A stretch of DNA of 44,764 bases from Methanobrevibacter sp. (GTDB taxonomy: Archaea > Methanobacteriota > Methanobacteria > Methanobacteriales > Methanobacteriaceae). A model generated the notes under the pieces. The model saw only the letters and a list, made by a program, of their open reading frames with translations, was not told the DNA's origin and searched no databases. This document shows, in pieces, positions 17,384 through 40,543 of the stretch. The DNA lies in contig JAILDN010000015.1 of NCBI GenBank assembly GCA_024689425.1, positions 1-44,764 on the forward strand. Reading direction: 5' to 3'. The first letter of the stretch is position 1, and each line of letters starts with the position of its first letter. The position numbers and the translations under genes were made by a program.

Positions 17384-18883
17384 CTAAATTAATGGTAATG
17401 CATTAGGAACTTTCTTTAAAATATTTTCTTTAACAGAAAACATTGTTGATGAAGCGATGGAAAAATCTGCTTCATTAGAAGCTGAAACGTCATCTTTTGC
17501 AGGAATAATTGTAGCATTTAATTCCTCTTGCAAATTATCAACAGTAATACTTTGTACCCAAGGGTCCGTGTCTGATATAATTATTTCATCAACTTGTTTA
17601 TCCAATTCCTTAGCTAAAACCCAAGATATGAACCTGGCACCATGCAATGCAATAGTATTACCTTGAGCAGTGTTGACTATTTCATCTAAAGAATATTTGA
17701 GATTAATATTTTCATACATTCTAGAATTAATTAATGTCGCCCAATGGGCATCTCCAACAGCATATTTACCAATTTTATTTGGATAGATGTAATCTGGCCC
17801 AGCAATCTTAACTGCAGTGGCTAATGCAAGCAAATCATGTTTTTGAACTGGAAAACCCCTATTAGGGAATTCTTCATTGATTATTTGAATGACTCTTGGA
17901 AGACCAAATTTGCCCCTTCTTGCAGTTCCCGGCTCAAATCCACACATGTATCCATGATGATTTTTTGGAAAACCAGTAATAACAATATTTAAACCAGATC
18001 TAAGACCTGCACGCACTTCATGCTCGTAAGCCCCATTAGTTGCAACAACTTTTCCTGGAGATAAAATTCTAGCTGCGGCAATGGTTTTTGCAAATGATTC
18101 TGTAGTATTTTCACAACGATTAAAAGGTCCACCTTCAACAACAATAATGTCTGCCCCAATTTCAATGGATTTTTCAAAACCTGTGATTACTTCATCGTAA
18201 CCATCACCGACAAACATGATAGATTCTAGACCCTTATTATATTCTTTAGCCAGGTTTGCAATGTCAATTGCTTCTCTTAATGGAGCTGCATGACCATCCC
18301 CAGTTTGTTCTGAAGTAACATTAACAGCAACAGATGAAGATAAATTAATCCAATCCAATTTATCAGGAGTCTCTTCTTTTTCTTTATCGATTAATCTTTC
18401 ATGTATTCTTCCACGAGGACACTCTGTATATGCAGGACCTTTTTTATAGCATTCCCCACCGCATCCACTAATATTTTTAGGAAGTCTCATCGGACCGTTT
18501 TCACCAAAATGATCTAAATCAAGGGGAACATCAACAATTTCATGAACCTTTTTCATTACTTCAATTCCTCTCATACCCTGACTTTCAGCAATATCTGAAA
18601 ATGCATAAGCGCATATATGAATTGGGGCCCCAATCATATCTGCTAATCTACAATTTCCAAGCAAATCTTTTAATTCTAAATCAGATGCACAAGTTCCAAC
18701 AACAACCTCTGTTAAATCACAACCCAATGGAAATCGTTTAAATTGCATTCCCAATTTCATAGTGTCTTCTAAAGATAACTCTGAAATTGCATCGACAACA
18801 GTAGTTACATCTTTATTTTCAATTTTTGATAACTCAATTGCTGCATCATCATCATGAACTGCTTGTTTAATTAAATCATACAT
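17384..18883 (-). CDS. hcgG: FeGP cofactor biosynthesis protein HcgG (HmdC family)
   Basis: A 499-residue cytoplasmic protein. Its length and sequence fit the HmdC/HcgG family that occurs only with [Fe]-hydrogenase and helps build the iron-guanylylpyridinol cofactor. Visible features: GTCASDLELKDLLGNCRL, then a Cys-rich stretch SGCGGECYKKG...CPRGR (about residues 119-137), SEQTGDGHAAPLREA, VEGGPFNRCENTTESF, and HHGYMCGFEPGTARRGKFGLPRVIQ. It is transcribed away from hmd, sharing a 390-bp control region. GGGGAT precedes the ATG. Its exact chemistry is not evident from sequence. The context makes the assignment strong. Confidence 0.82.
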   Translation of the reverse strand: MYDLIKQAVHDDDAAIELSKIENKDVTTVVDAISELSLEDTMKLGMQFKRFPLGCDLTEVVVGTCASDLELKDLLGNCRLADMIGAPIHICAYAFSDIAESQGMRGIEVMKKVHEIVDVPLDLDHFGENGPMRLPKNISGCGGECYKKGPAYTECPRGRIHERLIDKEKEETPDKLDWINLSSSVAVNVTSEQTGDGHAAPLREAIDIANLAKEYNKGLESIMFVGDGYDEVITGFEKSIEIGADIIVVEGGPFNRCENTTESFAKTIAAARILSPGKVVATNGAYEHEVRAGLRSGLNIVITGFPKNHHGYMCGFEPGTARRGKFGLPRVIQIINEEFPNRGFPVQKHDLLALATAVKIAGPDYIYPNKIGKYAVGDAHWATLINSRMYENINLKYSLDEIVNTAQGNTIALHGARFISWVLAKELDKQVDEIIISDTDPWVQSITVDNLQEELNATIIPAKDDVSASNEADFSIASSTMFSVKENILKKVPNALPLI

Positions 18884-18952
18884 ATAATATCCCCATTAAA
18901 TCCGTGTTTATTATATAATTATTTCAGTGAAATATTAAATAAAAATCTTTCG

Positions 18953-18970
18953 TTTTAGGCATACCAAAAA
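18953..18970. promoter_or_regulatory. DtxR/IdeR-like inverted repeat in the hcgG-hmd gap
   Basis: TTTTAGG-CATA-CCAAAAA is the same architecture (arms around a 4-nt spacer) as the boxes at feoB and feoA, with one arm mismatch. It lies about 70 bp upstream of hcgG, next to AT-rich sequence that could hold the hcgG TATA (near 18931-18945). An iron-responsive DtxR-type repressor is the natural candidate binder. This is inference. Confidence 0.5.
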
Positions 18971-19003
18971 ACTCTTAAAAATAAGTAAAATCAAAAAAAT
19001 AAA

Positions 19004-19083
19004 AGTAATACTTTTTTAATCAAATAAATAAAAAAGTAATACCGGTATTACTTAAACTAATAAATTTAATGATAAGTAATACT
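19004..19083. promoter_or_regulatory. AGTA(A/T)TACT box array upstream of hmd
   Basis: Three copies of AGTAATAC(T/C) start at 19004, 19035 and 19075. The middle copy is part of a 20-bp perfect palindrome AAGTAATACCGGTATTACTT at 19034-19053. Centres of GTAATAC/GTATTAC lie 31 bp apart twice (19008 to 19039, 19048 to 19079), about three helical turns. The array ends 15 bp before a TATA-like element at 19098. It recurs at the Ni/Co transporter. Confidence 0.7.
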
Positions 19084-19097
19084 AATTTAAAGCCACG

Positions 19098-19277
19098 TAT
19101 AAATATTTAAATAGTAGTAAGAATTTAAATAAAATTATTACTACATGTTTAACTACCGATGAAAAATATGTCTAACAATAATAAAAACATACGTTTTTAT
19201 AATAACATTGTAGTAACAATCTTTCGGAATTTTTTAAAAAAAAGAAAGATGAAAAATACCTTAAAGGAGATATAAAA
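19098..19277 (+). promoter_or_regulatory. hmd promoter and structured leader
   Basis: TATAAATA at 19098-19105 predicts a start near 19125-19130 and a leader of about 150 nt (or 210 nt to the inner start). The region holds GTAGTAA-N17-TTACTAC (19114-19144), then an 8-bp perfect hairpin ATAAAAAC/GTTTTTAT (19181-19200), ATTGT/ACAAT (19207-19220), and ATCTTTC/GAAAGAT (19219-19250) just before AAAGGAGA. The last two share bases, so they cannot both form fully. Confidence 0.5.
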
Positions 19278-19337
19278 ATGGTTCTTTCTAAATTAAAAGA
19301 AAAATTAGGAAGCCAAAATAAAAAAGGAGATAAAAAA

Positions 19338-20351
19338 ATGAAAGTAGCAATTTTAGGTGCAGGATGTTACAGAACACACGCTGCAAGTGGAATTACCAAC
19401 TTCGCAAGAGCTTGTAAAGTTGCAGATGCAACCGGAAAAGAAAACATTTCTATGACCCACTCCACTATTGAAATGGGTGCAGAATTATTAGAATTAGCAG
19501 GTGTAGATGAAGTAGTAGTATCCGACCCAATATTTGACGGAGAATTCACTGTAGTAGATGACTTCGATTACGCAGAAGTAATCGCAGCACACAAAGCAGG
19601 AAATCCTGAAGATGTAATGCCTGCTATCAGAGCAAAAGTAAATGAATTAGCTGAAACCGTACCAAAACCAGCTAAAGGTGCTATTCACTTTACCCACCCA
19701 GAAGACTTAGGAATGAAATGTACTACTGATGATTCAGAAGCAGTAGCTGACGCTGACTGGGTAATGACCTGGTTACCAGAAGGAGGTATGCAACCTGACA
19801 TCATCAAAAACTTCGCTGATGACATTAAAGACGGTGCAATCGTAACCCACGCATGTACTATTCCAACTCCTGGATTAAACAAAATTTTCGAAGACTTAGG
19901 TAAAAATGTGAACGTAGCTTCCTACCACCCAGGTGCTGTACCTGAAATGAAAGGACAAGTTTACATTGCAGAAGGTTTCGCAGACCAAGCTTCCATCGAC
20001 ACTTTAATGGACTTAGGTCAAAAAGCAAGAGGATCTGCATTCACCTTACCAGCTAATATGGTTGGTCCTGTATGTGACATGTGTTCCGCAGTTACCGCTA
20101 TTACCTACGCAGGTATCTTAGCTTACAGAGACACTGTTACCCAAATTTTAGGCGCTCCTGCTGGATTCGCTCAAATGATGGCAAACGAAGCTTTAACTAA
20201 TGTAACTAAATTAATGCAAGATGAAGGTATTGACAAAATGGATGATGCTTTAAACCCTGCTGCATTATTAGGTACTGCTGACTCAATGAACTTCGGATCA
20301 TTAGCAGAAATCGTACCTACTGTATTAGATTACTTAGGTAAAGAAGAATAA
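19338..20351 (+). CDS. hmd: [Fe]-hydrogenase, H2-forming methylene-H4MPT dehydrogenase
   Basis: Catalyses reversible transfer of hydride from H2 to methenyl-H4MPT using the iron-guanylylpyridinol cofactor, with no nickel or Fe-S cluster. The family start MKVAILGAGCYRTHAASGIT is seen. Cys173 (in VTHACTIPTP) is the equivalent of the iron-ligand cysteine; His14 and His197 (SYHPGAVPEMKGQ) match the catalytic histidines. GPVCDMCSAVTAITYAGILAYRD and LLGTADSMNFG complete the C-terminal domain. From this ATG the protein has 337 residues, close to known Hmd. An in-frame ATG at 19278 with an equally good ribosome site would add 20 residues. C-rich codon choice suggests high expression. It heads the hcgABCDEF cluster. 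Confidence 0.97.
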   Translation: MKVAILGAGCYRTHAASGITNFARACKVADATGKENISMTHSTIEMGAELLELAGVDEVVVSDPIFDGEFTVVDDFDYAEVIAAHKAGNPEDVMPAIRAKVNELAETVPKPAKGAIHFTHPEDLGMKCTTDDSEAVADADWVMTWLPEGGMQPDIIKNFADDIKDGAIVTHACTIPTPGLNKIFEDLGKNVNVASYHPGAVPEMKGQVYIAEGFADQASIDTLMDLGQKARGSAFTLPANMVGPVCDMCSAVTAITYAGILAYRDTVTQILGAPAGFAQMMANEALTNVTKLMQDEGIDKMDDALNPAALLGTADSMNFGSLAEIVPTVLDYLGKEE

Positions 20352-25992: not shown

Positions 25993-27288
25993 ATGAGTTT
26001 CATTTATTCCAAATTAACCTCTCTTTTTAATTTAATCAGTGATGAATTTCATAAATCATTTTTATTTACGATTATCTTTTCTATTTTGGAATTTTTAGAA
26101 AATCAATGGGTTAATAGCTTTTTTATAAGTCTTTATCCAAAAGAGAACTCTTTAGAGTTTTTAAAAAGAAACAATATTTTAAAAAATCATGTCTTTAATC
26201 CACTTATCGTTTTGGTTGTTTTTGCAGCTTTTTTGTCACTGTCTTTGAGCCCCATCTCTTTAAGCTTAACTGAAACGTTGGCAATTGGATTTTTATTCTT
26301 TTTTATTGGTGCTATAATATTGCCCAGATTCTTTTTAAACAAAAGTGAAAACATAATAACTTTCAACAAAAGAGACATATATTCCATCGGATTTTGCCTA
26401 ATTTTAGTTAGTGTTGCATTCTTCTTTATCAGCATCGCTTCCGTTGGTGGAATTCCTCTTTTAAAACCATCCATAAGATATCTACTTAAACCGGCTTTTA
26501 CAATGCCTGTTTTTTTAATAATACCTGGAACGTGCATATTGGCTAGTGTTTATCTAAAGGAATATCAGGATAAAACTATTACAAGATTCCAAGTTCGTTT
26601 CAGATTTTTAATCTTGCTTGTCATTGATGTTGTCTTTTTATTAGGTTTAGGTTATAGGACTCCACTGCTTGCAGCATTATTGATGCTGATTATAATAGCT
26701 TACTTCGGAGACATTATAGCAGTATGGGAAGTTGTCATTGGAGCACTGCTTGGTGTAGGTGCAATAATCGGCATAGGATATTTTAGGTCTATTGGAGAAT
26801 ATACAGTCAGCAAAGCAATCGACCCATTTTATACCCTAAAAAGCAGAGCTGACTTTACATTACATGTTCTAAATTTGCTTGACATTATCGGCGGAAACTT
26901 CGGAGCTACCCATGGGAATTTATTAGTCGCTTCCATACCTGGAAGTGAACTTGGGCCTAGAATGATGGTTGGTAAGTTAATTGCCTGGAGAACCGAAGTT
27001 ACAGTCACACCTACTTTAATAGGGCAGATGGTTGTTGATTTTGGAAAGGTTGGTGTTGCTTTAGAAATGTGCCTTTTAGGTTTCATTTTAGGAATCGGTT
27101 TTAAGATTATTAGGAAAACTAAAGATTATTTCTACATTGGACTTTATAGTTTAATATTAACTTATTCAATACTCGGTGTCGAAACTGGGATACTTGATAT
27201 TCAAGTTTTATTCTATTTTGCGATAGCTATTTTTATATATTTCACACTAATTTTAAAATCAGTAATAAAAAGTAATACTAAAAGTTAA
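25993..27288 (+). CDS. Polytopic membrane protein, oligosaccharide repeat-unit polymerase-like
   Basis: 431 residues with about ten to twelve hydrophobic segments. A large outward loop near residues 270-345 holds GGNFGATHGNLLVASIPGSELGPRM and GQMVVDFGKVGVALE, which resembles archaeal/bacterial Wzy-type (TIGR04370) polymerases that join polysaccharide repeat units. GLGYRTPLLAALLMLII is also typical. The final codons contain an AGTAATACT box belonging to the array of the next operon. The substrate polymer is unknown; pseudomurein-associated or capsular glycan is plausible. Confidence 0.7.
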   Translation: MSFIYSKLTSLFNLISDEFHKSFLFTIIFSILEFLENQWVNSFFISLYPKENSLEFLKRNNILKNHVFNPLIVLVVFAAFLSLSLSPISLSLTETLAIGFLFFFIGAIILPRFFLNKSENIITFNKRDIYSIGFCLILVSVAFFFISIASVGGIPLLKPSIRYLLKPAFTMPVFLIIPGTCILASVYLKEYQDKTITRFQVRFRFLILLVIDVVFLLGLGYRTPLLAALLMLIIIAYFGDIIAVWEVVIGALLGVGAIIGIGYFRSIGEYTVSKAIDPFYTLKSRADFTLHVLNLLDIIGGNFGATHGNLLVASIPGSELGPRMMVGKLIAWRTEVTVTPTLIGQMVVDFGKVGVALEMCLLGFILGIGFKIIRKTKDYFYIGLYSLILTYSILGVETGILDIQVLFYFAIAIFIYFTLILKSVIKSNTKS

Positions 27289-27353
27289 GAAAATAGGATA
27301 TTAGTAATACTTTTGTAATACTTTTTTAAAAAAATTTAATGAAAAGTATTACT
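27271..27353. promoter_or_regulatory. AGTA(A/T)TACT box array upstream of the Ni/Co transporter
   Basis: Boxes at 27271-27279, 27303-27311, 27315-27322 (GTAATACT) and 27345-27353 (AGTATTACT). Centre spacings include 32, 11 and 31 bp. A TATA-like TTTAAATATA follows at 27363-27372, about ten bp after the last box, the same arrangement as at hmd. Two further boxes lie in the leader at 27459 and 27492. Confidence 0.7.
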
Positions 27354-27389
27354 TTAAAAACCTTTAAATATAAAAATTAGGATAAATAC

Positions 27390-27526
27390 CTAATATCAAG
27401 CAACAAATAATTAGTTAAAAACAAATAAACTTGAAGAACTAATTTTAAACTTGATATTAGTAATACTACTATCAAATAAACCTGAAAAAGAAGTATTACT
27501 TTTTTAATAATTGGAGGAAAAATAAA
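27390..27526 (+). promoter_or_regulatory. Structured leader of the cbiM operon
   Basis: A nested stem: CTAATATCAAG (27390-27400) pairs perfectly with CTTGATATTAG (27450-27460), and AATTAGTT (27409-27416) pairs with AACTAATT (27437-27444). The distal arm can instead fold within TTGATATTAGTA-A-TACTACTATCAA (27451-27475; one mismatch). An AGTATTACT followed by T6 sits at 27492-27506, then GGAGG at 27513-27517. It could be a switch in RNA or a DNA operator within the transcribed region. Confidence 0.5.
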
Positions 27527-28165
27527 ATGCATATACCTGACGGATTTATACCATTTTGGCAATGTGCGATATACTATGTAATTTTAATAATAGCATTGTA
27601 CTTTGCTAGCAAATGGGCTAGAGAAAACCTTGATGAAAAAAGAATTCCTCTCTTAGCAGTTCTTGCAGCAGGTATCTTTGCTATCATGTCCATGAATATG
27701 CCTATTCCATTCGGAACCAGTGGACACATGGTAGGTGGAGCACTAGTAGCAATACTATTCTGTGCACCTGAAGCTGCAGTACTTGTATTTACAGTCGTAT
27801 TGATTATTCAAGCATTAGTATTCGGTGACGGAGGAATTACCGCTCTTGGAGCTAATGTATTAAATATGGCAATAATTGGAGGATCTGTAGGATTATACAC
27901 CTTTAAAGGTTTAAAAGGAATTATTGGAATCTATGGTGCTGCTGGTGTTGGAGCATGGTTAGCAACAGTAGTTGCTGCTCTTGCATGTGCTATTGAAATG
28001 GCAATCGCTGGAACATTCCCATTGACTATTGGAGTTGCATCAATGGTATTATACCACTTCTTCATTGGTATAATTGAAGCTGTATTAACTGTTGTTGTTT
28101 TATTAGCATTGAATTCATTCAGACCAGATCTTTTACCATGGAATAAAACGGAAGGAGGACAATAA
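27527..28165 (+). CDS. cbiM: ECF-type nickel/cobalt transporter, substrate-specific membrane subunit
   Basis: CbiM/NikM proteins bind Ni2+ or Co2+ through their very N-terminus. The mature start [11 protein letters not shown] has the invariant His2, and [20 protein letters not shown] (about residues 60-80) carries further metal-binding His/Met. About seven membrane segments, 212 residues. It is the first gene of the cbiM-N-Q-O operon with GGAGG 10 bp upstream. The metal cannot be read from this subunit alone. The promoter boxes shared with hmd and the PDGLE motif of the next gene favour nickel. Confidence 0.93.
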
Positions 28166-28166
28166 A

Positions 28167-28454
28167 ATGGATAAAACTGATAAATATTTAATAATAGTTG
28201 CGGTTGTTATTTGTATCATCATTAGTTGTCTTTCACCATTTATTGCATCTGGTGATCCAGACGGATTAGAAAAATCAGCAGAAGATGCTAATGTTCCTGA
28301 AGAAATAGAAACCGCAGTTGTTGAATCACCATTCCCAGACTACACCTTTGAACCTCTCGGATCTATTGGAGAAGTGGGTGTTCTTATATTAGGTGCCTTG
28401 CTAACATTAATTTGTGGATATGGTGTTGCTCAAATCGTAAAAAGAAGAAGTTAA
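28167..28454 (+). CDS. cbiN: ECF transporter accessory subunit with PDGLE motif (CbiN/NikN-like)
   Basis: 95 residues with two membrane segments (about 7-27 and 70-90) around an outward loop. The loop begins SGDPDGLEKSAED, the PDGLE motif, which I associate more with NikN than with classical CbiN (EFGGAD-type). It is required with the M subunit for metal uptake in ECF nickel/cobalt systems. ATG follows GGAGG at 1 bp after the cbiM stop region. A hairpin overlaps its stop codon. Confidence 0.85.
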   Translation: MDKTDKYLIIVAVVICIIISCLSPFIASGDPDGLEKSAEDANVPEEIETAVVESPFPDYTFEPLGSIGEVGVLILGALLTLICGYGVAQIVKRRS

Positions 28455-28532: not shown

Positions 28533-29363
28533 ATGCCAGATATAACGAAAGCTTTGAATTTAGATGAACTAGCTTCAAAAGATAGTCCTATTCATAATTT
28601 AGACGGACGTGTTAAGTTAATATCTGTTTTACTAGTCATTGTTATATCTGCTTTTTCAAATAATCTATTTATTCCAATTATTTTAGAAATATTTTTATTA
28701 ATTGTTATATTCATAGCAAAATTATCATATATTGATTCATTTAAAAGAATTGCCATGTTACTCCCATTTGGTGGAGCAATCATAATTTTTCAACCGTTTA
28801 TTCATCCGGGAAATATTTTATGGTCATATTCCTGGTTAACAGTTACAGATGTTGGTCTTAATTGGGCAATCTTATTATTAGTTAGAATTATAGTTTCTCT
28901 AACAGCAATAGTTATTTTATCTTCAACAAGTCCAATGCAACAAATTGTTACTTCTTTAAGAAGATTAAAAATGCCAAAAGACCTTGCTATGATATTAAGT
29001 ATCATGGTTAGATTCTTATTCGTATTTATCGACGAACTTGCGGCCATTAGGAGATCTCAAAAGTCAAGAAATTTCCATATACACTCAAAGTTAACTCCAT
29101 ATAAATGGAGAGTTAAGCAAGTCGGTTATACCGTCGCTATGATGTTTGTTAAATCATATGAACAAGGAGAAAGAGTCTATAAAAGTATGATTAGTAGAGG
29201 TTTTTCAGATAAATCTGACCTTTATAACGAAAAAAGTTCACTTGAAAAATCAGATTACATATATATTTTCATAATCCTTATCATAATAATAACCGCAGAG
29301 ATTATAATCTTTAAATATTCAAATCAATTAGGATACCTTGGAATGAACTTATCTATAAATTAA
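28533..29363 (+). CDS. cbiQ: ECF transporter transmembrane (T) subunit
   Basis: 276 residues, about five to six membrane segments, with coupling motifs near residues 170-190 (ELAAIRRSQKSRN and the later EQGERVYKSMISRGF) that match the conserved Ala-Arg-Gly helices contacting the ATPase. The N-terminus DSPIHNLDGRVKLISVLLVIVISAF is typical of CbiQ. ATG at 28533 lacks a strong ribosome site but lies within a TATA-like AT stretch. It works with the M/N and O subunits. Confidence 0.9.
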   Translation: MPDITKALNLDELASKDSPIHNLDGRVKLISVLLVIVISAFSNNLFIPIILEIFLLIVIFIAKLSYIDSFKRIAMLLPFGGAIIIFQPFIHPGNILWSYSWLTVTDVGLNWAILLLVRIIVSLTAIVILSSTSPMQQIVTSLRRLKMPKDLAMILSIMVRFLFVFIDELAAIRRSQKSRNFHIHSKLTPYKWRVKQVGYTVAMMFVKSYEQGERVYKSMISRGFSDKSDLYNEKSSLEKSDYIYIFIILIIIITAEIIIFKYSNQLGYLGMNLSIN

Positions 29364-29379: not shown

Positions 29380-30222
29380 ATGAGTAAAATACATTTTTCA
29401 ACAAAAAACTTAAGTTACACATATCCGGACGGAACTCATGCTTTAAGAAATGTTAACATGGACATAGAGAAAGGTCTAAAAGTTGCAATAATGGGACCTA
29501 ATGGTGCTGGAAAATCCACATTATTCTCACATTTCAATGGATTAACAGAACCTACCTCAGGACACCTGGAGCTTGAAGGAGAACGGATGCAATACGATAA
29601 AAAATCACTTTTAGAAATTAGACAAAGAGTAGGAATCGTATTCCAAGATCCAAATGACCAGTTATTTGCACCGACTGTAAAGGAAGATGTTGCTTTTGGC
29701 CCGATGAATCTGGGTTTAGGCTATGAAGAAGTGGAAAAACGAGTTGACGAAGCTTTAGAAATGGTAGAAATGAAAGAATTTAAAGACAAAACACCACATC
29801 ATTTAAGTGGAGGTCAGCAAAAAAGAGTGGCTATTGCAGGTATAATTGCAATGAGGCCTGAAATAATGATACTTGATGAACCGACAGCAGGTCTTGACCC
29901 TCAAGGTGTTGATAAAGTATTAGAAATCTTAAATAAATTAAACGAAGAAGGAATGACCATTGTAATATCTTCACATGATATAGAGATGGTAAATTCTTTT
30001 GCAGATAAAATCTTTGTTTTATATAAAGGTCAAATTATTGATAGTGGAGATAAACACGATATCTTTTCAAATAAAGAATTACTAAAAAAAGCCCACTTAA
30101 AAGCGCCGATAACGACTGAAATATTATATTCCCTAAAGGAAAAAGGTTACGGTGTCGATACCACTAAAATAACATTGAATGAAATTATTGATGAAATAGA
30201 AAATATGAAAAAAGAAAATTAA
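29380..30222 (+). CDS. cbiO: ECF transporter ATP-binding subunit
   Basis: An ABC ATPase: Walker A GPNGAGKST at 39-47, Q-loop FQDPNDQLFAPTV, signature LSGGQQKR near 142-149, Walker B IMILDEPTAGLDP and a switch His in ISSHDIEMV. 280 residues. The C-terminal ITLNEIIDEIENM is a common tail. GGGG at 29364-29367 precedes the ATG. Its TAA overlaps the stop codon of the convergent zinc-ribbon gene within TTAA (30219-30222). Confidence 0.95.
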   Translation: MSKIHFSTKNLSYTYPDGTHALRNVNMDIEKGLKVAIMGPNGAGKSTLFSHFNGLTEPTSGHLELEGERMQYDKKSLLEIRQRVGIVFQDPNDQLFAPTVKEDVAFGPMNLGLGYEEVEKRVDEALEMVEMKEFKDKTPHHLSGGQQKRVAIAGIIAMRPEIMILDEPTAGLDPQGVDKVLEILNKLNEEGMTIVISSHDIEMVNSFADKIFVLYKGQIIDSGDKHDIFSNKELLKKAHLKAPITTEILYSLKEKGYGVDTTKITLNEIIDEIENMKKEN

Positions 30223-30727: not shown

Positions 30728-30763
30728 AATTTTTAGGCACACTAAAAATTTTATAGTAATACT
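30728..30763. promoter_or_regulatory. Iron-type and AGTA-type boxes at the feoA promoter
   Basis: AATTTTTAG-GCACA-CTAAAAATT (30728-30750) is a perfect inverted repeat, a variant of the feoB boxes. AGTAATACT (30755-30763) lies next to it. On the minus strand a TATA-like AAATATTTATATATT (30776-30790) lies just upstream, so both boxes cover the expected transcription start. Confidence 0.6.
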
Positions 30764-36671: not shown

Positions 36672-36686
36672 AGTATTAGTAATACT
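36672..36686. promoter_or_regulatory. AGTA-type box between tadA and methyltransferase genes
   Basis: AGTATTA-G-TAATACT (36672-36686) is a perfect inverted repeat containing the AGTAATACT box. It lies about 40 bp before tadA and 60 bp before the rightward gene. On the minus strand an AT-rich AAAAATTTATTAAT (36688-36702) could be the TATA. Only one box is present, so it is weaker evidence than the hmd and cbi arrays. Confidence 0.45.
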
Positions 36687-40072: not shown

Positions 40073-40531
40073 CTAAAATTTGTTTCTATTAAAATTAAGG
40101 GATTTTATTGATAACTTAGATAATATTTCCAGCAAATCTTCGCGGGAAATATTTAAATCTTCACAAATCATATTATCCCATTCGATTTCTTTTTCTTCCA
40201 ATAACTTTGCCGTATCAAGGCCTTTTTGAGTTAATGTAGTGATATATTCACGTTTATTTTCAGGATTGACTTCCCTTTTGATTAATCCTTTCTTTTCAAA
40301 ATCGCTGAATGCTCTTGAAACACCACTACGATTCATAAAACAAGCTTTTGCTATATCTGATTGGTTAACTGAAGGTTCATAGTAAAGCATCATGAACATA
40401 TAATATTGTGAATAGGATATTTCAGTTTCATTTTTGATAAATTGATTTAAATAGTAATCGTGAGTTTCTTTCAAGGAAATTAAATGATTTAAAATAAATG
40501 GTGAGCAATTAATTATATCTTCATAATCCAT
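40073..40531 (-). CDS. MarR-family transcriptional regulator
   Basis: About 152 residues. The winged-helix domain is clear: PSVNQSDIAKACFMNRSGVSRAFSDFEKKGLIKREVNPENKREYITTLTQKG (about residues 54-105), with flanking helices for dimerisation. ATG at 40531 is preceded by GGTGAT. Target genes are unknown. The gene stands between a zinc-ribbon ORF and the recombinase, and no operator could be identified. Confidence 0.88.
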   Translation of the reverse strand: MDYEDIINCSPFILNHLISLKETHDYYLNQFIKNETEISYSQYYMFMMLYYEPSVNQSDIAKACFMNRSGVSRAFSDFEKKGLIKREVNPENKREYITTLTQKGLDTAKLLEEKEIEWDNMICEDLNISREDLLEILSKLSIKSLNFNRNKF

Positions 40532-40543
40532 CACAATAATCAC

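Follow-up and report, generated by a model that had tools for sequence, protein, structure and literature searches.

A multi-box array at the hmd promoter of Methanobrevibacter, a probable NikR operator one helical turn longer than its bacterial counterparts

Methanobrevibacter is a main genus of methanogens in the gut and the rumen, and the [Fe]-hydrogenase Hmd replaces nickel hydrogenases when nickel is scarce. Predictions of NikR sites in methanogens reportedly go back to Rodionov in 2006. An RHH dimer has two-fold symmetry and reads a short palindrome of about the size of a 9-bp box. In the excerpts of published work on which the comparisons in this report draw, NikR is described as a tetramer with two RHH heads attached to a core in its middle that binds Ni (PMC7055735, PMC9860126). 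The E. coli NikR operator, GTATGA-N16-TCATAC, lies in a bacterial promoter, has paired symmetric half-sites 22 bp apart from centre to centre (c-c), and serves a nickel importer (PMC7055735). In delta-proteobacteria, the NikR box is GTGTTAC-N13/14-GTAACAC with half-sites at c-c 20-21 bp, and its targets are nikMNQO-type genes as well as hydAB2, the operon of a nickel-free hydrogenase predicted to be NikR-repressed (PMC545781). Nickel limitation in Methanothermobacter marburgensis raises Hmd, HcgG, CobN1, transporters, and NikR1 (PMC12350162), and the excerpts dealing with this response give no operator (PMC12350162, PMC3087415). In M. ruminantium exposed to lauric acid, hmd, cbiM1/N1, and nikA2-D2 rose together, as did many unrelated genes, and a P-type ATPase, possibly not the ortholog of the box-bearing gene described here, moved in the opposite direction (-6.61 log2) (PMC5816558). 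According to PMC10617489, NikR sites were predicted for eight genomes of methanogens in a study of 2006, so part of the nikM motif reported here may already be in print. For hmd, no operator was described in the titles and abstract openings on NikR with Methanobrevibacter, hmd, or archaeal regulons among the matches listed.

We analyzed a stretch of 44,764 nucleotides from Methanobrevibacter sp. (hereafter the window). Four AGTAWTACT-type boxes lie at the hmd promoter, within 19004-19083; the initial annotation had recognized an array but counted only three boxes. Matches to AGTAATAC start at 19004, 19035, and 19075 on the + strand and at 19045 on the - strand, and since the full AGTAWTACT box is a 9-bp palindrome around its central base, the strand of a box means little. 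Boxes A (19004-19012) and D (19075-19083), both AGTAATACT, flank boxes B and C, which together make up the palindrome AAGTAATACCGGTATTACTT (19034-19053), 20 bp long, perfect, and without further extension. The GTAWTAC cores start at 19005, 19036, 19045, and 19076, which gives c-c distances of 31 (A-B), 9 (B-C), and 31 bp (C-D). The likely hmd TATA box, TATAAATA (19098-19105, + strand), is 14 bp downstream of the array. The 20-bp box-containing palindrome, the 31-bp spacing occurring twice, and the ending of the array just before TATAAATA were all described correctly in the initial annotation. Hmd is encoded at 19338-20351 (+ strand; PF22616, PF03201, TIGR01723), with the conserved start MKVAILG, and divergent from it lies an hcgG-type gene (17384-18883, - strand; PF10113, FeGP cofactor biosynthesis protein, fibrillarin family).

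The boxes resemble the E. coli operator in their GTAT/ATAC edges, in the pairing of symmetric half-sites, and in having a nickel importer as target, but differ from it in spacing and in promoter type. GTATTAC and GTAATAC are one base off the delta-proteobacterial 7-mers GTGTTAC and GTAACAC, so that GTAWTAC pairs, like the known operators, consist of two related half-sites, and nikMNQO-type genes are targets in both groups. In contrast with the delta-proteobacterial operators, the half-sites here are 31-33 bp apart, every box is itself palindromic, and the boxes are organized in multi-pair arrays.

The region between the likely TATA box and the body of hmd has features of its own. At 19278-19337, an in-frame ATG at 19278 with its own RBS-like stretch makes a 20-codon hmd extension ahead of 19338, and such N-terminal extensions are visible in several relatives too. 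The hmd mRNA leader (19138-19250) contains two stem-loops that recur among relatives; the first has the form TTACTRCATG...CATGYAGTAA with AACTACC shared in the loop, and the second hairpin precedes the RBS. In 6 of 20 sequences, both partners of one pair in the first stem are exchanged together, A-U becoming G-C. Set against this, 7-8 of the 20 do not form the three innermost pairs, and a structure slid by one column scores 0.105 versus 0.113, which makes the covariation support weak. An Rfam search around the hmd promoter (18880-19400) returned a single, sub-threshold match (E 2.2).

A second array, of six boxes (27271-27500), goes beyond the initial annotation; it stands ahead of cbi/nikMNQO, the Ni/Co transporter genes that the window also contains. 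Its first four boxes (27271-27353) start at 27271, 27303, 27314, and 27345, at c-c distances of 32, 11, and 31 bp, and are followed by TTTAAATA (27363-27370, + strand), the likely TATA box of cbiMNQO. Another pair (27459-27500; starts 27459 and 27492, c-c 33) sits between the likely TATA box and the start codon. The hmd and cbiM promoters thus have a layout in common: a pair, about one turn, and a pair. The genes behind the second array, all on the + strand, are cbiM/nikM, the S component of a Ni/Co ECF transporter (27527-28165; PF01891), a PDGLE/cbiN-like subunit (28167-28454; PF13190), cbiQ/nikQ (28533-29363; PF02361, TIGR02454), and the ATPase gene cbiO/nikO (29380-30222; PF00005, TIGR01166). 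Lone full AGTAWTACT boxes are also present in the window at 30755-30763, in the feoB-feoA gap, and at 36678-36686; neither 9-mer has a partner at c-c 31-33 with up to two mismatches, and feoA/B was dropped as a target. Elsewhere in this genome (L266, G000:C32), a lone full box (core at 824) stands some 90 bp ahead of the start of another CbiM-like gene (67-732, - strand, 34% identity), and a divergent gene that begins at 996 shares this box.

Within the window, AGTAATAC occurs 13 times against 1.27 expected, a number reached by 0 of 100 shuffles, and there are five perfect pairs at c-c 31-33, confined to the two promoters, compared to zero such pairs in 40 windows simulated from a first-order Markov model. 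Counted genome-wide, AGTAWTAC by itself shows no enrichment (93 forward and 92 reverse matches, versus 88 and 92 for the reversed pattern that served as control), and single-box enrichment was rejected as evidence. Spaced pairs, in contrast, are enriched, with 13 pairs versus 2 in the control at gaps of 12-41 bases and 9 versus 0 at 22-27 bases between cores, mainly at nickel-related genes, so that box enrichment, a check proposed in the initial annotation, holds for pairs and not for single boxes. The signal is the spaced pair rather than the single box. Over 67 congeneric genomes, pairs at gaps of 22-27 number 540 versus 50 in the control, with at least one in 67 of 67. When five genomes were scanned at gaps of 1-31, 46 of the 62 pairs found (control 13) fell at c-c 31-33, or three helical turns; the corresponding P-value of 1e-33 assumes independent pairs and uniform spacing and, the genomes being related, is unusable as a probability. 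The main class therefore lies outside the two-turn spacing of 20-22 bp c-c, while a minor class at gaps of 12-17 (c-c 19-24) amounts to 83 pairs versus 19 over the 67 genomes and is present in 44 of them. Across the order, the exact pair occurs in 139 of 150 genomes, and the 12 genomes of families f2 and f3 have only 6 pairs versus 2 in the control. For genomes outside the genus, the exact-pair scan was nevertheless rejected as a way to tell whether the pair is present, given that f2/f3 nikM has the pair with zero to two mismatches.

That the boxes are chance repeats in AT-rich intergenic DNA, or reflect a structural bend without a dedicated regulator, would agree with the genome-wide number of single boxes, which does not exceed the control. 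This explanation is scarcely credible in view of the pair enrichment, the sharp spacing at 31-33 bp, the conservation at hmd and nikM, and the function-specific targets.

In this genome, the pairs at c-c 31-33 precede hmd/hcgG, cbiMNQO, a GNAT gene, and genes that encode a P-type ATPase of the heavy-metal type, a CobN-like protein, and a DUF3344 protein. We examined the neighborhoods of all pairs in this genome (G000) and in G010, G011, and G014, together with 8 of 12 pairs in G041, 6 of 9 in G044, and 1 of 10 in G009. A script assigned 46 of the 52 examined pairs at c-c 31-33 to the target classes cbiM (13), P-type ATPase (7), hmd or hcgG (6), NikA-like SBP (5), small RNA (5), NikD/E-like ATPase (4), DUF3344 (3), CobN (2), and GNAT (1), where the label of a pair between divergent genes, as at hmd/hcgG, NikD/E-GNAT, and some DUF3344 genes, denotes the nearest start and the target could be either gene. 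By reading, the six pairs that the script left unassigned lie before the GNAT gene (L069), at DUF3344-type genes (twice in L187, and in L195), and at two secreted-type ORFs (L274). One G014 pair at c-c 29 (L199) is inside a coding frame. The cbi/nikMNQO and NikA-like operons place the pairs at nickel-import genes, as expected of a NikR operator; the three NikA-like proteins scanned have nickel_nikA (TIGR02294) as best profile, with scores under its cut-off. Hmd, HcgG, CobN1, and nickel transporters also figure in the M. marburgensis nickel response. The P-type ATPase behind the boxes, of the CPC, heavy-metal type, is hard to fit and unexpected in an uptake regulon. Its promoter in this genome (L070 5816-5930, G000:C32) looks tandemly duplicated, with TATATAAATG between two boxes in each copy and a degenerate outermost box.

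In five genomes, a candidate small RNA of 77-88 nt follows a box pair and a TATA-like element (L196 3067-3152, - strand; L186 3270-3357, + strand; L272 1556-1641, + strand; L273 562-648, - strand; L281 1445-1521, - strand). It is closed by GTTTGRAG...CTTCAAAC, contains CTTTCAAA and TTCCCTCTT in all five cases, is followed by a T-rich stretch, and adjoins a DUF3194-type gene (a Pfam assignment made from L196 only). No candidate was found among the pairs of G000 or G011, and Rfam searches over the five loci gave no match on the RNA and one sub-threshold match away from it (E 0.11). RyhB is an iron-sparing small RNA, and by analogy the candidate could be an archaeal counterpart of RyhB or NikS that shuts off nickel enzymes in nickel shortage. 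NikS of Helicobacter pylori is NikR-repressed (PMC8322730) and thus likewise a small RNA behind a NikR-type promoter, although the archaeal RNA is only predicted.

Conservation was assessed at 29 usable hmd loci, 28 labelled Methanobrevibacter and one labelled only "archaeon", which were left from 58 after 12 had been excluded by hand (other genera or unlabelled) and 17 because fewer than 400 bp preceded the gene or its N-terminus matched poorly; some of the 29 share a genome (L115 and L125; L102 and L107). When one mismatch is allowed, a three-turn pair is present at 24 of these loci, 18 of them exact, compared to 0 of 29 for the reversed control, and two pairs offset by 40-41 bp, the A-B/C-D layout, occur at 15. 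Over 46 of the 49 hmd loci with a gene start (9 of the 58 have none), exact boxes number 98 in 35,945 upstream bases versus 43 in 242,022 other bases. Upstream of hmd, exact boxes are missing from the loci of Methanovirga and of Methanococci type among those 46, and a two-mismatch pair at the Methanococci-type loci L141 and L146 was taken as chance. At nikM outside the genus, the pair was found in 14 of 16 genomes with up to two mismatches and in 12 with up to one, compared to 0 of 16 for the reversed control; pairs at other spacings occurred in 0 to 3 of the 16.

At hmd in f2 and f3, families of the same order that are taken to be Methanothermobacter-like, the three-turn pair occurs at 0 of 12 loci, unlike in Methanobrevibacter. 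The link to hmd is thus clade-limited, and the conservation in sister species raised in the initial annotation holds at genus level but not in these families. A looser pair at c-c 20-22 is present at 8 of the 12 loci. In f2 (L233-L240, about -45 to -18), we observed GTACTAC-N14-GTATTAC or close variants, near the two-turn NikR geometry; by reading, this pair overlaps a short TACTAC...GTAGTA hairpin near the likely transcript start. The f2 pair might serve as an operator or else act within the RNA, and control of hmd in f2/f3 may differ from that in Methanobrevibacter.

The candidate regulator, NikR, is encoded by one gene in this genome (G000:C45, L068:7917-8369, - strand). The protein has an N-terminal RHH domain (PF01402, 23.6 bits, cut-off 20.5) and a C-terminal NikR_C domain (PF08753, 103.7 bits, cut-off 22), scores above the NCBIfam cut-offs of NF002169 (236.4, cut-off 111), NF003381 (138.9, cut-off 105), and NF002815 (96, cut-off 83), and falls under those of TIGR02793 (77.9, cut-off 175.45) and NF001884 (118.9, cut-off 119). 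The four Ni ligands H-X10-H-X-H-X5-C, a motif that we take from E. coli NikR, are intact (qHsfrneintsmHiHmtdkyC), and the same expression matches at 42 of 42 relatives' loci. The best solved relative is 2bj1 (E 1e-34), which we take to be P. horikoshii NikR and whose linker is one residue shorter. MMRISMSLP, presumably the DNA-reading strand, is present in 40 of 41 parsed NikR sequences, and L044 has VMRISMSLP. NikR was detected in 63 of 67 congeneric genomes and in 37 of the 37 with a completeness of 90% or more and a contamination of 5% or less; the four genomes with boxes and without a NikR match are all less than 90% complete. Because NikR is near-universal in the clade, its co-occurrence with the boxes has little power. 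At 41 nikR genes (of 42 loci, L161 being left out as its start reads X), the preceding 300 bp hold no exact box, nor was one found at nikR in G000, and nikR autoregulation was rejected on these grounds.

The boxes might instead be read by another metal-responsive regulator, of ArsR, DtxR, or MarR type or undescribed, that controls the same nickel genes. Binding by NikR is only predicted, three-turn spacing is atypical for NikR, and both an ArsR-type gene of G000 (L069 3463-3846), some 4 kb away from its GNAT locus, and a MarR-type gene in the window (40073-40543) would be at hand for such a role. We nonetheless regard this as improbable, since the box has the size of an RHH site and differs by a single base from NikR 7-mers already known, NikR was the sole match over the cut-off in a search of G000 with RHH_1 (PF01402; the second match was just below, at 19.9 of 20.5 bits), and the NikA-like and nikMNQO operons among the targets are usual for NikR.

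Based on the pair enrichment, the nickel gene set, the conservation at hmd, and the presence of one NikR, the proposal in the initial annotation of an operator for a nickel-responsive regulator such as NikR, or for a new metal sensor, appears well founded, and we consider it probable that the hmd array is a multi-box operator for NikR, one turn longer than the bacterial ones, through which a nickel-sparing regulon would be repressed in Ni-replete cells. Two NikR tetramers would be involved, one spanning boxes A and B and the other boxes C and D; the boxes within each pair are three helical turns apart, and B and C are neighbors in the palindrome. With nickel bound, NikR would keep hold of the array next to the hmd TATA/BRE and thereby shut out TBP/TFB, and the divergent hcgG-type gene might be affected as well. 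In nickel shortage, NikR would release the DNA, and nickel-free Hmd would be switched on together with the nickel importers and likely surface proteins that bear the same boxes. The sites adjoin or surround TATA-like elements at hmd, cbiM, and the P-type ATPase, which suits blocking of TBP/TFB.

Archaeal activators often sit just upstream of the TATA box, and all four hmd boxes are upstream of the likely TATA box, as would be expected if apo-NikR acted as an activator that recruits TBP/TFB at hmd in nickel shortage. This is quite improbable, as the TATA-like TATATAAATG between boxes at the P-type ATPase and the cbiM pair between TATA and start codon suit blocking.

Several observations speak against a NikR operator. 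Bacterial operators span about two turns, not three, and the NikR linker is only one residue longer than that of 2bj1; the extra turn would imply a more open tetramer or bent DNA. The RHH region of f2/f3 NikR is nearly unchanged (38-40 of 45 residues, from a comparison of four sequences), yet the three-turn hmd pair is absent from all 12 loci there. Finally, nikR has no exact box, although NikR1 rises under nickel limitation in M. marburgensis.

A wider reading, on which we place somewhat less than even confidence, is that the NikR code of the Methanobacteriales consists of palindromic boxes three turns apart and was widened in Methanobrevibacter from nickel import to a nickel-sparing regulon that comprises the [Fe]-hydrogenase, CobN/DUF3344 proteins likely to be at the cell surface, and a regulatory small RNA. 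For the nickel switch of Hmd, for which the literature passages available give no operator, the present analysis points to one specific DNA site, names a candidate regulator, and lists genes predicted to be co-controlled. The extra helical turn, if true, would be a new NikR geometry among the operators compared here.
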